From positions 1 through 32,351 of IMG/VR virus record IMGVR_UViG_3300028025_003127: a stretch of DNA of 32,351 nucleotides, one strand, 5' to 3'. Shown here piece by piece: positions 26,266 to 32,006 of the stretch (the first letter of the stretch is position 1; every line of letters begins with the position of its first letter). A program made the translations under genes and the position numbers. Source of the DNA: a virus. The notes beneath the pieces were generated by a model. That model ran no database searches, was not told the origin of the DNA, and saw only the letters and a list, made by a program, of their open reading frames with translations.

Positions 26266-26668
26266 ACCAAGCGAAAGCCTTACATATAACCTAGCCAAGC
26301 GGAAGATTATGCTGGAGAAGTTTGATGAACTCCAGGCGCAAGGCGTATCCCAGCGGGAAGCATCCAAGATGCTCGGCTACACATACACCACTTTGAAGAA
26401 CTGGATGAAGGAACGATCTATGGAAGAACAGCGCGAGATTGAAGCCAAGCGGATGACTTTAGCCGGTGGCTCCTTTTCAGCTGCCCTTGAGCGCCTCAGA
26501 GCCGGACAGATGGTAAGGCGCAGGGATGCCCGCTGGTTCGTAGAACTCATCGATGGCAAGATATGCCTTTACGCTTTGGATGGTGCAGGGAATCGACGAT
26601 ACAGCCGAGTGGCTTCATTCGGTAGCCCTGATGTCTTGGCGATGGACTGGGAGATATACCAACCATGA
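26252..26668 (+). CDS. HTH fused to a Tad2-like domain, member C
   Basis: 138 residues. The first ~60 residues are a helix-turn-helix (FDELQAQGVSQREASKMLGYTYTTLKNWMKERS) with a basic linker. The second part (from about residue 72) fits the Tad2-like outline: SFSAALERLRAGQMVRRRDARWFVELIDGK ... DVLAMDWEIYQP. This is the only member joined to a DNA-binding domain. It overlaps the neighbours (ATG in the DUF3310 end, TGA over member D's ATG). It could link the sensing of a small molecule to gene control, but that is speculative. Confidence 0.55.
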   Translation: MAAGRPSESLTYNLAKRKIMLEKFDELQAQGVSQREASKMLGYTYTTLKNWMKERSMEEQREIEAKRMTLAGGSFSAALERLRAGQMVRRRDARWFVELIDGKICLYALDGAGNRRYSRVASFGSPDVLAMDWEIYQP

Positions 26669-26886
26669 CGTGGATTGAAGCCGTAAAGGCTATGGAAGAT
26701 GGCAAGAAGATAAGGAAACAAGAATGGGAGGAAGACTGGTTTCTCTGCGTCAATAAAAACAATATTATTGAGTTATCAGACAGTTTTGCTGCATACACAA
26801 TGCAATCCCATTTTGAAGGCCCGTGGGAAATAAGTCAAGCTTATGAAGATACTCGTGACAATGACTGGGAGATACACCAGCCATGA
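26665..26886 (+). CDS. Tad2-like (DUF2829-type) small protein, member D
   Basis: 73 residues: MTWIEAVKAMEDGKKIRKQEWEEDWF at the start and TRDNDWEIHQP at the end, the closest match to the Tad2-like family outline here. Its last residues (DWEIHQP) nearly repeat member C's (DWEIYQP). It is AT-richer than flanking genes. The start overlaps member C's stop, and the stop overlaps the ThyX ATG. The family has members that bind cyclic nucleotide signals of Thoeris; whether this protein does is not known. Confidence 0.6.
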   Translation: MTWIEAVKAMEDGKKIRKQEWEEDWFLCVNKNNIIELSDSFAAYTMQSHFEGPWEISQAYEDTRDNDWEIHQP

Positions 26887-27512
26887 CAAAGCTAATCTGG
26901 ATCACACCGGAAGCGGAACAGGTCATCGGTTATTGCGCTAGGGTGTCCAACCCTGCAAACCAAGATAACCCAGACGTTAGTAGACTGTTGTCTTACTGCA
27001 TCAAGCATGGCCACTGGTCAATCTTTGAGATGGCTTCAATGTGCGTGGAAATCAAAACCACGCGGGCTATTGCTCCGCAGATTCTTAGACATCGTTCCTT
27101 CAGTTTCCAAGAGTTTAGCCAAAGGTACGCAGAGGTTCACGACTTCCCCATTCTGGGGCAGATGAGGCTTGCTGGTACAACTAACCGTCAAAGCTCACAA
27201 CCCATGCCAGAAAGGGATGACTTAGATGCAGAAATGCAAGGAGTCATTTTAGACGCTGAGTTGTCTGTCTCTCGTGGTTATTGGACATATAACAAACTTA
27301 TCAAAGCCGGTATTGCTGCTGAGACTGCAAGGATGGTTCTACCGCTTTGCACACCAACCACGATGTATATGAGCGGCACGGTTAGGTCTTGGATCCATTA
27401 CGTGCAACTTAGAACGCAGGAAGATACGCAGCTGGAACATAGGCAGATAGCAGACAGCATCAAGGCTTTGATGGTTGAGCATCTGCCGATCACAATGGGA
27501 GCGATAGCGTGA
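26883..27512 (+). CDS. thyX: Flavin-dependent thymidylate synthase
   Basis: 209 residues. The ThyX motif RHR-x7-S is present at residues 69-79 (RHRSFSFQEFS), followed by QRY. An early HWSIFEM segment and a later Glu/Arg-rich end (RTQEDTQLEHRQIADSI) belong to the flavin and dUMP site. The enzyme makes dTMP from dUMP using methylene-tetrahydrofolate and FAD, independent of ThyA. It supplies thymidylate for phage replication. It lies amid the Tad2-like genes, overlapped on both sides, in one transcription unit. Confidence 0.95.
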   Translation: MTKLIWITPEAEQVIGYCARVSNPANQDNPDVSRLLSYCIKHGHWSIFEMASMCVEIKTTRAIAPQILRHRSFSFQEFSQRYAEVHDFPILGQMRLAGTTNRQSSQPMPERDDLDAEMQGVILDAELSVSRGYWTYNKLIKAGIAAETARMVLPLCTPTTMYMSGTVRSWIHYVQLRTQEDTQLEHRQIADSIKALMVEHLPITMGAIA

Positions 27513-27757
27513 CATTCACTGAAGTGTTTCAGGACTTGATGGATGGTAATCCTGTTAGCCGTACTTCTTGGGAAAAGGAAGATGAGGCGCGAATCGTTTA
27601 CTACGACAATCAAACAAAGGCATTTGTAGACAGAAGGACATCAGGAGAATGGCAGTCTAAATACCTCTGTGTCATTGGTGACGATATGAACGCTACCGAT
27701 TGGGAAATATGCGAATGGGAAGAGGGAGATAAAAAATGGCAAGATTTGGTGAAGTAA
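27509..27757 (+). CDS. Tad2-like (DUF2829-type) small protein, member E
   Basis: 82 residues, GTG start in a GTGA overlap with ThyX. The outline MTFTEVFQDLMDGNPVSRTSWEKEDE, variable middle and DDMNATDWEICEWEE is again the Tad2-like pattern. The C-terminal 8 residues overlap member F's reading frame. Members E and F share the EV.QDLM.G start, so they may be a recent duplicate pair. Function is by family pattern only. Confidence 0.58.
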   Translation: MTFTEVFQDLMDGNPVSRTSWEKEDEARIVYYDNQTKAFVDRRTSGEWQSKYLCVIGDDMNATDWEICEWEEGDKKWQDLVK

Positions 27758-27978
27758 TACAAGACTTGATGGAGGGTGGCAGTAAAGCCGTATTGCGTAG
27801 CGAATGGGGAGGTTCGGTATTCCTGCGCTACTCCGAGCTATGGAATATTTTTGAACTGCATGGCCCAGGGGGACGCGTTACGCAGTTGGAAGAACTTAGC
27901 CTTTCACCCGGTGACCTGTTCGCGAATGATTGGGCGGTTGTGAAACTTGACCCGCGAACCGGGGAGGTAGCCAAATGA
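27736..27978 (+). CDS. Tad2-like (DUF2829-type) small protein, member F
   Basis: 80 residues: MARFGEVIQDLMEGGSKAVLRSEWGG at the start and PGDLFANDWAVVKL at the end. It has its own good ribosome site (AGGGAGATAAAAA-ATG) inside member E's end, so it can be translated on its own. The start resembles member E (EVFQDLMDG) and the end resembles member A (TANDWIVL). Its stop overlaps the next ATG. The function is inferred as for the others. Confidence 0.6.
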   Translation: MARFGEVIQDLMEGGSKAVLRSEWGGSVFLRYSELWNIFELHGPGGRVTQLEELSLSPGDLFANDWAVVKLDPRTGEVAK

Positions 27979-28166: not shown

Positions 28167-28365
28167 ACGATTACGCAACCCACCCAAGGATATCTTTACT
28201 CAACTAAAGAAGTGTCCGGCATTGCAAGAGCAAGGGCCTACGTGGACTGTAAGTAACGAAGCGTTTGAGTTGATGAAACGCATTATTATGGAAGAACTGG
28301 AGAAAGAGCGATGGCAGCACAACCCGGAGCAGGTAGACCAACCAAGTACACACCGGCGACAGTAG
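28156..28365 (+). CDS. Small basic hypothetical protein before terminase
   Basis: 69 residues. The ATG at 28156, preceded by GAGGCGGGATGGA, is preferred over an upstream TTG at 28141. The product is basic at the start (MASRRLRNPPKDIFTQLKK) and helical later (AFELMKRIIMEELEKER). No family is recognised. It overlaps the previous gene by 11 bases and the terminase small subunit by 55 bases in another frame, so it could be a packaging helper or regulator, without proof. Confidence 0.5.
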   Translation: MASRRLRNPPKDIFTQLKKCPALQEQGPTWTVSNEAFELMKRIIMEELEKERWQHNPEQVDQPSTHRRQ

Positions 28366-28676
28366 AAAAGATTCTGGAGGCTCTGCGAGGTGGTAACACC
28401 CGCAGGGCTTCCTGTGCTGTTGCTGATGTTTCGCAAGATAGCCTAGCCCTTTGGCTTAGAACCTATCCCGAATTTGCGGAAGCAGTAGAAAAAGCAGAGG
28501 GTAAAGCGGAAGCCAAGATGGTATCGGTCATCAAAGCCGCATCAGAAACTACATGGCAAGCGGCTGCATGGTGGCTTGAGCGCAAGCACAAGGCCGACTG
28601 GTCTAGCCGGGTAGAGCAGACAGGCGCAGATGGTAGCCCGGTCAAGGTGATCGTGGAGTACGCAGATAAACCATAA
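28311..28676 (+). CDS. Terminase small subunit
   Basis: 121 residues. The start GRPTKYTPATVEKILEALRGG and the next helix pair (TRRASCAVADVSQDSLALWLRTYPEFAEAVEKAEGKAE) are the helix-turn-helix of small terminases, and the WQAAAWWLERKHKADWSSR segment is the usual tail. It recognises phage DNA and starts packaging with the large subunit. The stop overlaps the large subunit ATG (TAATG). Confidence 0.88.
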   Translation: MAAQPGAGRPTKYTPATVEKILEALRGGNTRRASCAVADVSQDSLALWLRTYPEFAEAVEKAEGKAEAKMVSVIKAASETTWQAAAWWLERKHKADWSSRVEQTGADGSPVKVIVEYADKP

Positions 28677-29857
28677 TGCCAGACATTCGATTGGTTCTCC
28701 CTAGACCTCATGAAGCACAGCAGGTGATAATGGCACAGGCAAGGCGCTATAACGTCCTTGCCTGTGGCTGAGTAGGTCGAAGATTCGGTAAGACCACACT
28801 CGGCGGTAATCTTTTATCTGACCCGGTTCTAAAAGATGCTCTGCCATGCGCGTGGTTTGCTCCTACCTACCGCTTGCTGGAAGAGGCATACAACGATCAT
28901 AAGCGTATCTACCAGCCTGTCATCCGGCGAGCCGTGCAGACTCCTGCACCGCGCATCGAGTTGATAACCGGGGCAGCAATCGATTACTGGACGCTTGATG
29001 ACCCTAGCACCGTTGCCCGTGGGCGTAAGTACAAGCGGGTCATCATTGATGAGGCAGCAATGGCTAGGCACTTAGAGCAAGCCTGGACGGAAGCCATACG
29101 CCCAACGCTCACTGACTACAGGGGGGATGCGTTCTTTCTGTCTACGCCTAAAGGCTCTAACTACTTCAAGACACTACACGCCATGGCTGGTGTAGATGAT
29201 GACTGGATGTCTTGGCAGATGCCTACCACGGCTAACCCTTGGATAGATGCCGCTGAGGTAGACAAAGCCGGGGAGTCACTGCCGAGCATCGCGTTTAGGC
29301 AAGAGTATTTAGCCGAGTTCGTGGATGCTGCGGGAGCTCGTATCAAGCGGGAGTGGCTACGCTTTGGCGATGCCCCTGAAGGTTTGCCGGTCTACCTTGG
29401 TGTTGACCTTGCTATATCTACCAAGGCGGAAGCAGACTACACCGCCGTGGTTGCTCTGAGCCGTGCAGAGGATGGCACGATCTACGTGCTGGATGTAAAC
29501 CGTACGCGTGCAGACTTTGCTTCCGTGTTGCGGTTCATCGAGGCTATGGCGGATAAGTGGCATCCGGTTATGATTGGCATCGAGCAGGTGCAATACCAAG
29601 CCGCTGTCGTGCAGGAGCTCATGAGGCGCACGAAACTGCCTATCCGAGGGATACGCCCAGACCGTGACAAGATAACCCGCTTTGGGCCTCTAGAAGCCCG
29701 GTACGAGCAAGGGCAGGTCGTGCATACTGAAGGCTTGCCACCTTACTGGCAGGACGAACTGCTATCCTTCCCGGTTGGCAGGCATGATGACGTGGTCGAT
29801 GCGATGGCGTACGCTTGGCAGGTGATTGGACAACGTAAGGGTTGGGGAGCCGTCTAA
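28676..29857 (+). CDS. Terminase large subunit with an in-frame TGA in the Walker A loop (bypass candidate or lesion)
   Basis: Packaging ATPase and nuclease. The frame starts at ATG 28676 (TAATG overlap) with MPDIRLVLPRPHEAQQVIM and reads YNVLACG, then TGA GTA GGT (28769-28777), then RRFGKTTLGG in the same frame. Without those nine bases the protein has CGRRFGKT, the usual Walker A, at 390 residues. The stop is flanked by synonymous Gly codons GGC and GGT. Walker B is visible (KRVIIDEAAMA) and the nuclease acidic residues too (VYLGVDLA, GRHDDVVDAMAY). No other in-frame start keeps Walker A; the next one is TTG at 28874. If it is not bypassed it would be broken, but the rest of the gene is fully open. 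Confidence 0.78.
28734..28766 (+). repeat. Perfect 11-bp hairpin next to the in-frame stop
   Basis: CACAGGCAAGG (28734-28744) and CCTTGCCTGTG (28756-28766) pair perfectly around an 11-base loop. The right arm ends on the first base of the Gly codon just before TGA. The arms code for AQAR and LACG-type residues common in terminases, so chance cannot be excluded. Confidence 0.6.
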
Positions 29858-29875
29858 AATATATCTCTTATATCA

Positions 29876-29904
29876 TTGCAGTATATATACTTAGAGTGTA
29901 TATT
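29876..29904 (+). promoter_or_regulatory. Promoter before the small gene at 29932
   Basis: TTGCAG (29876-29881), 17 bases, TATATT (29899-29904). It starts 27 bases before the ATG, in an AT-rich gap after the terminase gene, so the mRNA would have a normal leader with a GGGAGA site. Confidence 0.7.
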
Positions 29905-29931
29905 ATCTACATCAAGCAGGGAGATAGAGAT

Positions 29932-30204
29932 ATGACTACAAGAGAAGAACAACTGATCAACGAGCAAGCTAGAGTAGAAGCGCAAGCACGATTGGCTGCG
30001 TTCCGTGCAAAAGCAAAAGCATCTGGGTTCGTTGCACCAGCACCAAAGAATCCAGCTAAACTTGGTCAGCTTGCAATGGTAAAAGTTGGCTGGTTCCATG
30101 TTCATGGTTATGTTGTCAAAATCGATGGAATGTTTGTATGGATTGAAAGTGAAAGTAAATCATATAAAGTACACGCACTAGGATGTAAATACTTCAACCG
30201 CTAA
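29932..30204 (+). CDS. Small basic hypothetical protein between terminase and portal
   Basis: 90 residues. Start ATG 29932 with GCAGGGAGATAGAGAT. A charged N-terminal helix (TREEQLINEQARVEAQARLAAFRAKAKASG) is followed by a Pro/Ala hinge and a compact strand-rich C-terminal part (GQLAMVKVGWFHVHGYVVKIDGMFVWIESES), SH3-like in appearance. It has its own promoter and terminator and AT-rich DNA, so it may be a moron gene: a small, separately expressed gene inserted into the late region. Function unknown. Confidence 0.68.
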   Translation: MTTREEQLINEQARVEAQARLAAFRAKAKASGFVAPAPKNPAKLGQLAMVKVGWFHVHGYVVKIDGMFVWIESESKSYKVHALGCKYFNR

Positions 30205-30212
30205 TCACACAG

Positions 30213-30233
30213 GCCCCCGCAAGGGGGCTTTTT
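30213..30233 (+). terminator. Rho-independent terminator before the portal gene
   Basis: GCCCCC-GCAA-GGGGGC is followed by TTTTT. It isolates the small gene at 29932 from the head operon, and a further AGGCC-GTA-GGCCT hairpin lies at about 30246-30258, just before the promoter element. Confidence 0.9.
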
Positions 30234-30261
30234 CTTTGAGCGGAGCAGGCCGTAGGCCTCC

Positions 30262-30278
30262 TGTGGGATACTAGGCGC
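30262..30278 (+). promoter_or_regulatory. Late promoter candidate TGTGGGATACT-N6-ATG (portal operon)
   Basis: The same 11-mer as at 726 and 3032, six bases before the portal ATG. There is no ribosome site before the portal, which fits a leaderless mRNA. The palindrome AGGCCGTAGGCCT lies where a -35 would be and could be an operator. Confidence 0.6.
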
Positions 30279-32006
30279 ATGGGTATCTTTGACCGCTTCC
30301 TTGGCAATAAAGCCGTAGCAAACCCGACACAGGCTTTGCCGTTACCGCTTAGTCAGTCCCGTGATGTCTACCTAACCGGCTATGGCTCCGGTCAGCTGCA
30401 AACACTCTTGCGCCGTGCGCTTCCTGGAAGCACTAAAGATTGGGCAAGAGTAGCGGGAGACCTTGGGCTAAACGGTATCGTGGCATCTGCCATTGACTGG
30501 TATGTGCGGAACTACCCTCAAGCCACACCAAGGCTCTACCGACCGGTAGACAGCCAGCAAGCAGAGCCGGTAGAAGACCACCCGGTTATCAAGCTCATGG
30601 CTCAACCAGATCCAATGATTATGGGTAGCCTTTTCTGGTCTTGGGTCATCCAAGATTACAAACTATTCGGCAACACCTACCTGAGAAAGATTCGGTCTAC
30701 TACCCGTGGCGTAGTGACCGCTCTGCAGTTCCTTCCGCAGGACATGGTGCGCCCTGTCGGCAATGGCGTAAACCCGCTAACCCACTACATCTACACCACG
30801 GACGGGCGCTCCTTTGACATCCCGGTTAGCGACATCATCCATATCCGGTACAACCGTGACCCGCAGGACATCCGCTTGGGTAGGTCTCCTGTCATGGCGG
30901 TACTGCGCGAGATAGCCACCGACAATACCGCCAGTACAACCGCTTATGGTTTGCTTGCCAATGGTGCTATGCCATCGCTTATTGTCGGGCCTGATGCCAA
31001 AGACCAGACCGTAGACATCTCGATGGATGACGCCCGGCAGGTGAAGCGGCAGTTGCACGAAGACCTAACCGGGGACGGTAGCGGCGGCATCGTGGTTATG
31101 ACCGGTGCGTATAAACTTGATCGTGTTAGCCTTACACCGTCCGAGCTTGCTTTGGATTCCGTTAGGCGTGTACCGGAAGAACGCATCTGTTCGGCCCTTG
31201 GTATCAACCCAATGGTCTTGGGGCTTGGTTCAGGTCTCGAACGGTCTACATACAGTAATTATGAGCGCGCTCAGCAAGCGGCTTGGGAAGACGGTATGGT
31301 TCCTTTGCTCCGTACCCTTGCCGACGCAATCACTGCAGACCTGTTGCCAGAGTACCCAGAAACCCAAGAGGGTGACTTCATTCAGTACGACCTTGAAACC
31401 GTACGGGCGTTGGCTGATGACCTTGCTGCAGAAGCCGAACGAGCAGAGCGGCTGTACAAGGCTGGCATTATTGATCGTGCTGAAGCCAAGCGCATAGCCG
31501 GGTTAGAAGCCGTGCCGGAAGACGAAGGGCAACTACACCCAACGGCTATACCCGTACAAAGCGGTGGTGGTTTTGATGCTTCCGCAGTACGCAGTTACGA
31601 TGTGAAGGCACGACCAACTGAAGCAATGCGGACTGCTGCACAAAGGGCGCTTGACTGGAAAGCCGAGGGCTTTGATGGCGGGACCCGGATAGGGCTTGCA
31701 AGGGCAAACCAGATCGTGAATAGGGAGCAACTTTCCGATGACACGATACTTAGAATGTATTCTTTCTTTAGCCGCCATGAAGTAGACAAGAAGGCTGAAG
31801 GGTTCAACGCTGGTGAAGACGGTTTCCCTTCACCGGGGCGTGTTGCTTGGGACTTGTGGGGCGGTGATGCAGGGTTTAGGTGGTCAACATCCAAACGTAA
31901 CGCTATGCAACCTGACGGCAAGAGCGTTGATTGCTGCACTCCGGGGGTAGTGTACAAGTCTCACCCTTTTTACGGGTACGAGATGGAAAGCATCTCAAAA
32001 GAGTAA
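30279..32006 (+). CDS. Portal protein with C-terminal 'GDAG' domain
   Basis: 575 residues. The portal core is clear: the SAIDWYVRNYPQA start, LLRRALPG, GNTYLRKIRS, a wing and stem (GLERSTYSNYERAQQAAWEDG...) at about 320-350. It forms the dodecamer through which DNA is packed. From about residue 440 there is an extra region (AAQRALDWKAEGFDGGTRIGLARANQIV ... SRHEVDKKAEGF ... PSPGRVAWDLWGGDAGFRW). Similar stretches occur in other phage head proteins and proteases, but its function is unknown. The stop at 32004-32006 lies inside the minor head frame, one base back. Confidence 0.88.
   Translation: MGIFDRFLGNKAVANPTQALPLPLSQSRDVYLTGYGSGQLQTLLRRALPGSTKDWARVAGDLGLNGIVASAIDWYVRNYPQATPRLYRPVDSQQAEPVEDHPVIKLMAQPDPMIMGSLFWSWVIQDYKLFGNTYLRKIRSTTRGVVTALQFLPQDMVRPVGNGVNPLTHYIYTTDGRSFDIPVSDIIHIRYNRDPQDIRLGRSPVMAVLREIATDNTASTTAYGLLANGAMPSLIVGPDAKDQTVDISMDDARQVKRQLHEDLTGDGSGGIVVMTGAYKLDRVSLTPSELALDSVRRVPEERICSALGINPMVLGLGSGLERSTYSNYERAQQAAWEDGMVPLLRTLADAITADLLPEYPETQEGDFIQYDLETVRALADDLAAEAERAERLYKAGIIDRAEAKRIAGLEAVPEDEGQLHPTAIPVQSGGGFDASAVRSYDVKARPTEAMRTAAQRALDWKAEGFDGGTRIGLARANQIVNREQLSDDTILRMYSFFSRHEVDKKAEGFNAGEDGFPSPGRVAWDLWGGDAGFRWSTSKRNAMQPDGKSVDCCTPGVVYKSHPFYGYEMESISKE

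Follow-up and report, generated by a model that had tools for sequence, protein, structure and literature searches.

The window analysed here spans 32,351 bases and constitutes the IMG/VR phage record IMGVR_UViG_3300028025_003127, which contains genes for the small and large terminase subunits (TerS and TerL), portal, major head protein, tape measure and endolysin. Coordinates of terS, terL, the portal gene and the elements within terL all refer to the + strand. The terS gene spans 28311–28676 (PHROG 4102, E=3e-27; Pfam Sf6_terminase), and its TAA overlaps the ATG of terL (TAATG). The terL frame runs from ATG 28676 to the stop at 29857 and reads MPDIRLVLPRPHEAQQVIMAQARRYNVLACG, stop, VGRRFGKTTLGG and onwards, with the TGA at 28769–28771 as the single internal stop. 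Specifically, ORF1 (28676–28771) comprises 31 codons followed by the TGA and contains a PHxxQ element that is also present in relatives. ORF2 (28778–29857) encodes 359 aa, from the RRFGKTT Walker A motif to the C-terminus, and matches the Pfam Terminase_6N/6C and PHROG TerL families. The portal gene lies downstream at 30279–32006 (Phage_portal, E=4e-53).

The internal TGA is directly 3' of Gly31 (GGC, 28766–28768) and is followed by GTA (28772–28774), GGT (28775–28777) and the CGA at 28778 with which RRFGKT starts. Omission of TGA GTA GGT (28769–28777) yields ACGRRFGKT, a normal Walker A motif. Hereinafter, GGC and GGT are designated the take-off codon and the landing codon, respectively, and the nine bases comprising the stop, one codon and the landing codon are designated the coding gap or insert. 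An mRNA hairpin with a perfect 11-bp stem (28734–28766) abuts the take-off codon. Its 5' arm CACAGGCAAGG (28734–28744) pairs with its 3' arm CCTTGCCTGTG (28756–28766) across an 11-nt loop, and the stem ends on the first G of GGC. RNAfold adds two CG pairs to this hairpin, giving 13 bp and −21.3 kcal/mol.

Two further stretches of the window were noted. An AT-rich stretch between terL and the portal gene contains a 90-aa ORF (29932–30204) without a Pfam or PHROG match, possibly a recent insertion. Three small Tad2-like genes (PF11195, Thoeris anti-defence 2-like; 26665–26886, 27509–27757 and 27736–27978), two above the Pfam cut-off and the third slightly under it, flank a ThyX thymidylate synthase gene (26883–27512), and this stretch may represent an anti-defence cluster.

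The original prediction, made from the sequence alone, had described the in-frame TGA and its codon coordinates, the CGRRFGKT loop left after removal of the nine bases, and an 11-bp hairpin ending on the first base of GGC. It had also likened GGC, GGT and the stop right after GGC to the bypass site of T4 gene 60, had considered a code change unlikely given that TGA is a normal stop, and had found no downstream start that retains Walker A. All of these points held: the frame was re-read, the hairpin is where it had been placed, and the GGC/GGT arrangement is supported in relatives. TGA terminates 17 of the 32 probable genes of the window, which excludes its reassignment. An internal start is excluded, since the window has no in-frame start before Walker A; the earliest downstream ATG, GTG or TTG is the TTG at 28874, past the motif. 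A single frameshift across the 9-nt form is also excluded. No single shift restores TerL because the +1 frame hits TAG and the −1 frame hits TAA within about eight codons. A known RNA element is excluded by the absence of any Rfam match at E≤1 across 28200–30300, whether to a selenocysteine element, a structured RNA or a group I/II intron. DNA comparison within the window's own record detected no second terL copy, the only other match being the hairpin itself, and no DNA match was found in the phage collection.

The insert recurs in other phages. An IMG/VR protein search returned 80 relatives, a set that is unbiased as to the insert because only the post-insert part of TerL was used as the query. 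Thirty of them have the insert, always at this very codon, and 50 lack it. Pattern scans and two more searches from divergent relatives gave 76 distinct carriers and 82–84 distinct non-carriers. The pattern searches presupposed GGC-TGA, and the unbiased searches gave an agreeing picture. The pattern-matched carriers amount to 85 IMG/VR contigs from 70 metagenomes, in which GGC followed in frame by the insert recurs at the same terL codon. The search of homologous terminases for the nine bases found the identical insert TGAGTAGGT in 68 of the 76 distinct carriers; the remaining inserts are TGAGTAGGC (4), TGAGTGTAGGT (2), TGAGTAGAT (1) and TGAGAAGGC (1). Carriers are interleaved with insert-free relatives. 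The original prediction had left room for a lesion or an assembly error. These alternatives failed and are excluded, since the same insert occurs in 70 metagenomes and strong purifying selection acts on the gene downstream of it.

The stop, the take-off codon and the landing codon are highly constrained in carriers. TGA is present in 76/76 distinct carriers and a sense codon never takes its place. The take-off codon is GGC in all carriers, while it varies among GGN codons in non-carriers (GGG 20, GGT 13, GGC 6, GGA 5 in the first set). The landing codon is GGT in 70 distinct carriers and GGC in 5, with GAT as the sole exception. GGT and GGC are both read by the tRNA-Gly with anticodon GCC. The 11-nt insert TGAGTGTAGGT occurs in two diverged phages (L010 and L081) and places ORF2 in another frame; skipping from GGC to GGT would still yield CGRRFGKT. 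The bodies of both terminases are intact, with synonymous to nonsynonymous codon differences of 111:10 (L010) and 105:7 (L081) relative to their nearest relatives.

The GAT landing codon belongs to a lineage that is identical in three metagenomes (L040, 3300042691_012901; L045, 3300008113_000292; L046, 3300008111_001584). Its terminase is otherwise intact. GAT is not matched by tRNA-Gly(GCC) and is unexplained under strict codon matching; strict matching is perhaps dispensable, or this lineage may work poorly. Contig 3300011334_000332 (L283) terminates exactly on the last insert base (GGCTGAGTAGGT), which might reflect an assembler break where several phages share an identical cassette. Several candidates were rejected as false matches that lack the insert, namely L159–L161 and the "CAGCTGCGGG/CTCCTGCGGG" rows L164 and L170. 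Similar inserts at P-loops of other types (R-R-x-G-K-[ST] with x other than Phe) were likewise rejected: among 42 matches, those with a long downstream ORF are chance matches out of frame, and the real frame is open through them. No bacterial carrier, host or prophage, was found; the nearest bacterial contigs reach no more than 55% identity, their alignments are to the uninterrupted protein, and no host was assigned from them.

Both halves of the carrier gene are under purifying selection. The 359 post-insert codons are open in carriers, with dN/dS of 0.072 at pS 0.59, compared with 0.080 in non-carriers, and the first 30 codons of carriers have dN/dS of 0.09. In carriers, a single conserved protein is encoded by two separate ORFs, and the gap between them is absent from their non-carrier relatives. 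The purifying selection downstream of the gap shows that carriers retain an intact terminase. An alternative is that translation simply terminates at the TGA, so that the phages are terminase-defective or rely on another copy and ORF2 is a recent pseudogene. An in-frame stop ordinarily inactivates a gene, and the lack of an in-frame start before Walker A also speaks for this alternative. Against it, ORF2 has remained open at the above dN/dS, both halves are conserved, and no second copy is detected by DNA in the window's own record. We consider this alternative all but excluded.

The hairpin is specific to carriers. When the same peptide was encoded 200,000 times with randomly chosen synonymous codons, a perfect 11-bp stem arose in only 174 cases. 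All 11 pairs of the 33-nt hairpin segment form in 76/76 carriers, while 80 of the 82 non-carriers with pair counts form 3–8 pairs. The exceptions are L072, with 11 pairs and hence the only perfect stem among the 82, and L215, with 10; both have a complete or near-complete stem without the insert. The mean energy of the segment is −21.3 kcal/mol in carriers and −8.4 kcal/mol in non-carriers. Three versions of the stem occur (CACAGGCAAGG/CCTTGCCTGTG, CACAGGCGAGA/TCTCGCCTGTG and CACAGGCGAGG/CCTCGCCTGTG), and two stem pairs are therefore altered on both sides. These two pairs covary, with every change made through synonymous codons, and slid controls show no such covariation. The peptide preceding the insert differs as well (AQARR[YF]NVLACG in carriers and REA[KR]R in non-carriers), a difference that could reflect a nascent-peptide signal of the gene 60 kind but is also dictated by the hairpin arm.

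Synonymous diversity at codons −14 to −1 is 0.13 in carriers and 0.41 in non-carriers, while just past the landing codon it is normal (0.56 and 0.59, respectively). The low diversity upstream and normal diversity downstream therefore indicate an RNA signal upstream of and at the take-off site. Two reservations apply. Conservation of the hairpin partly reflects shared descent, because carriers are related and recombine. In addition, the covariation evidence consists of only two pairs, and stimulation of a hop by the hairpin is inferred. Carriers have no conserved counterpart of the stop-containing take-off stem-loop or the 3' stem-loop of T4 gene 60, and the normal synonymous variation downstream argues against any conserved element there. 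A structure is predicted for the window itself, though no downstream element is conserved. Both stem-loops are among the signals of gene 60, but bypass as such can be defined without them.

These data bear on a second alternative, TGA readthrough, in which a near-cognate tRNA would read the TGA and the terminase would contain three extra residues, X-V-G, before RRFGKT. UGA readthrough is common. The 9-nt insert is in frame, as readthrough demands, and the GAT landing variant (L040) poses no difficulty for it. The evidence against readthrough is of four kinds. First, in-frame readthrough cannot yield TerL in L010 and L081 because the 11-nt insert shifts the frame of ORF2. Second, no carrier has a sense codon in place of TGA, though this would be an easy improvement. 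Third, alignments to relatives and to the solved terminases 4zni and 3ezk run from the pre-P-loop strand into the P-loop with no gap. Fourth, readthrough leaves the carrier-specific upstream hairpin without a role. We regard readthrough as very unlikely. The comparative evidence strongly favours a matched-codon bypass, as the original prediction had proposed; the preference rests on comparison only, in the absence of protein data, and hopping itself is inferred.

The bypass reading suggests the following sequence of events. The ribosome would decode Gly31 at GGC, and TGA would then enter the A site. While GGC occupies the P site, the hairpin's 3' arm would lie within the mRNA exit channel, unable to pair. 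The peptidyl-tRNA-Gly would detach from GGC and, once the codon–anticodon contact gives way at the stop, every further nucleotide of advance would liberate one more base of the arm. The 11-bp hairpin would fold behind the ribosome and pull the mRNA forward. The tRNA would re-pair on GGT 9 nt downstream, and decoding would restart at CGA to give the ACGRRFGKT Walker A loop. A crude calculation, which assumes the number of bases covered by the ribosome, indicates that the folding energy grows while the P site advances from position 28766 to 28775–28778. The 5' stem-loop of T4 gene 60 has been proposed to act as such a "motor" (PMC5009743) and is also discussed in PMC11194080.

The insert and hairpin behave as a mobile cassette between phages, which, together with the carrier specificity and covariation of the hairpin, goes beyond the original prediction. 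L113 and L152 are 68% and 78% identical to the window in protein sequence. Their terL bodies are ~90% identical in DNA to those of the non-carriers L165 and L194, yet they have the AQARR hairpin and the insert. On a tree of codons 61–359 the insert requires 33 changes, at least 18 of which are forced by well-supported branches; these counts are possibly inflated by recombination within the gene.

A subset of carriers has an HNH endonuclease gene beside the cassette. Specifically, L193, which is on the same contig as L152, contains an antisense 207-aa ORF between terS and terL, with cysteine pairs and an HNH_3 domain. Homologues of 63–66% identity occupy the same place in L086, L109, L143, L141, L009, L027, L112, L127, L010 and L126, all of them carriers; in L009 it occupies precisely the interval between the stop of terS and the start of terL. 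When the whole of IMG/VR was scanned for this HNH family, 11 contigs were detected, with the gene antisense between terS and terL, and 11/11 are carriers. The HNH gene is present between terS and terL in 8 of 72 distinct carriers and 0 of 79 non-carriers (Fisher p=0.002), and close copies have dN/dS of ~0.08. The window and most carriers have no HNH gene nearby. The terS–terL spacer is a hotspot in carriers and non-carriers alike (L003, L010, L011, L015, L023, L082 and others), with ORFs that by eye resemble dUTPase (IRFHGVKPTRATKHSAGYDLRS) and DNA methyltransferase (HHGNCLDILRTMPD) in addition to other small genes.

By inference, intact terminase genes are probably the target of the HNH endonuclease, with cleavage close to the Walker A codons, and the 9-nt insert would shield the carrier's own terL from being cut. 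The window phage has the insert but not the endonuclease gene. What the HNH protein does and where it cuts are both inferences. A third alternative accepts the bypass but not homing: insert and hairpin would have spread by ordinary phage recombination, with the HNH gene as a passenger in the terS–terL hotspot. The spacer does host other variable genes, and most carriers lack the HNH gene. Against it, all 11 contigs with this HNH gene that were found in IMG/VR are carriers, the HNH gene at the same location in the divergent carrier L152 is 65% identical, the association is significant by the Fisher test above, and the HNH gene is under purifying selection. We judge the passenger explanation unlikely. 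A fourth alternative is regulatory recoding, in which the hop would set the terminase level (31-aa peptide versus full TerL) and would be kept for that purpose. Persistence of the insert in carriers without HNH is in its favour. Against it, L072 and L215 have the whole or nearly the whole stem but no insert, and the insert is missing from about half of the distinct relatives. This alternative is also very improbable.

Conservation of the insert, covariation of the hairpin, purifying selection downstream, repeated gain and loss, and linkage to HNH are shown. The likely interpretation is a programmed translational bypass of 9 nt in the large terminase gene, with insert and hairpin forming a mobile HNH-linked cassette; hopping, the hairpin motor, the cleavage site and protection are inferred, as there are no protein, ribosome-profiling or reporter data. 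A bolder reading, which we consider more likely than not, is that a natural, mobile, minimal stop-hop of 9 or 11 nt, driven by the hairpin from GGC to GGU, constitutes the immunity part of an HNH homing cassette that is spreading in a group of environmental phages, with bypass, cleavage and immunity all inferred.

Among bacteria and phages, T4 gene 60 is essentially the only well-proven natural bypass, and its 50-nt gap needs several signals. The present 9-nt candidate comes in over 70 natural variants, among them variants of length, landing codon and hairpin, and is suited to direct use in reporter and single-molecule assays that define the minimum requirements for mRNA release and re-pairing. 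The HNH link, if true, would imply that ribosome hopping evolved more than once, letting selfish DNA sit harmlessly in an essential gene. Standard gene calling flags these terminases as broken, a caution for annotation.

We found no paper on the present element in the literature searched. According to a 2016 review, stop-hops had been obtained synthetically, no natural in-frame example was known, and shorter-distance counterparts of bypass had long been presumed (PMC5009743). The synthetic stop-hops in E. coli share matched codons around a stop and a slow A-site codon that triggers the hop (PMC5009743). They are artificial, and 9 nt specify one amino acid, compared with 12 nt in the present element, which is natural, conserved and hairpin-linked. 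The byps of Magnusiomyces capitatus mitochondria are also short inserts skipped by the ribosome and tolerate imperfect landing matches (PMC5009743); they differ in being mitochondrial, apparently context-independent and distributed over many genes.

The closest counterpart by gene is the probable bypass in the terminase of the Streptomyces phage phiHau3, noted in the same review (PMC5009743) and reportedly the subject of Smith et al. 2013. In phiHau3 and GreenWeasel, whose terminase is annotated as separate genes, TTACYCCGGT follows GGC between GWG and KDP of the loop (L162, 2595–2635; L284, 1484–1505), and this loop is uninterrupted in phiScoe10. Large terminase, P-loop-like GWGKD, GGC take-off and GGT landing are shared with the present element, and the gap is 10 nt (TTACTCCGGT). 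The A-site codon in phiHau3 is UUA, not a stop (PMC5009743), whereas here it is UGA; sequence and terminase family are unrelated, and the phiHau3 bypass was proposed earlier by others. The original prediction's suggestion that this would be the shortest matched-codon bypass thus holds in part, given that the synthetic stop-hops are shorter (PMC5009743) and the gap proposed for phiHau3 is 10 nt. If the present bypass is real, it and phiHau3 together would make the terminase P-loop a recurrent target of such elements.

The closest counterpart by organization is T4 gene 60. The two differ in gap length (50 nt in gene 60, 9 or 11 nt here), in stop and codons (UAG and GGA-to-GGA; UGA and GGC-to-GGU here) and in gene (topoisomerase; terminase here), and gene 60 has a stop-containing take-off hairpin and a 3' element, of which no conserved equivalents are seen here. 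Gly take-off and landing codons, a stop directly 3' of take-off, a stem-loop 5' of take-off and location in a phage gene are common to both, as are an adjoining HNH homing endonuclease gene (mobA in T4; in part of the carriers here) and an insert that behaves as a mobile cassette (PMC5009743, PMC3014915). The mobA/bypass cassette was reportedly described in Bonocora et al. 2011, and a protective role against the homing nuclease linked to gene 60 has been suggested for its insert (PMC3014915, PMC5009743). If our reading is correct, the terminase element would be a counterpart of T4 mobA/gene 60 that is independent of it and much smaller.
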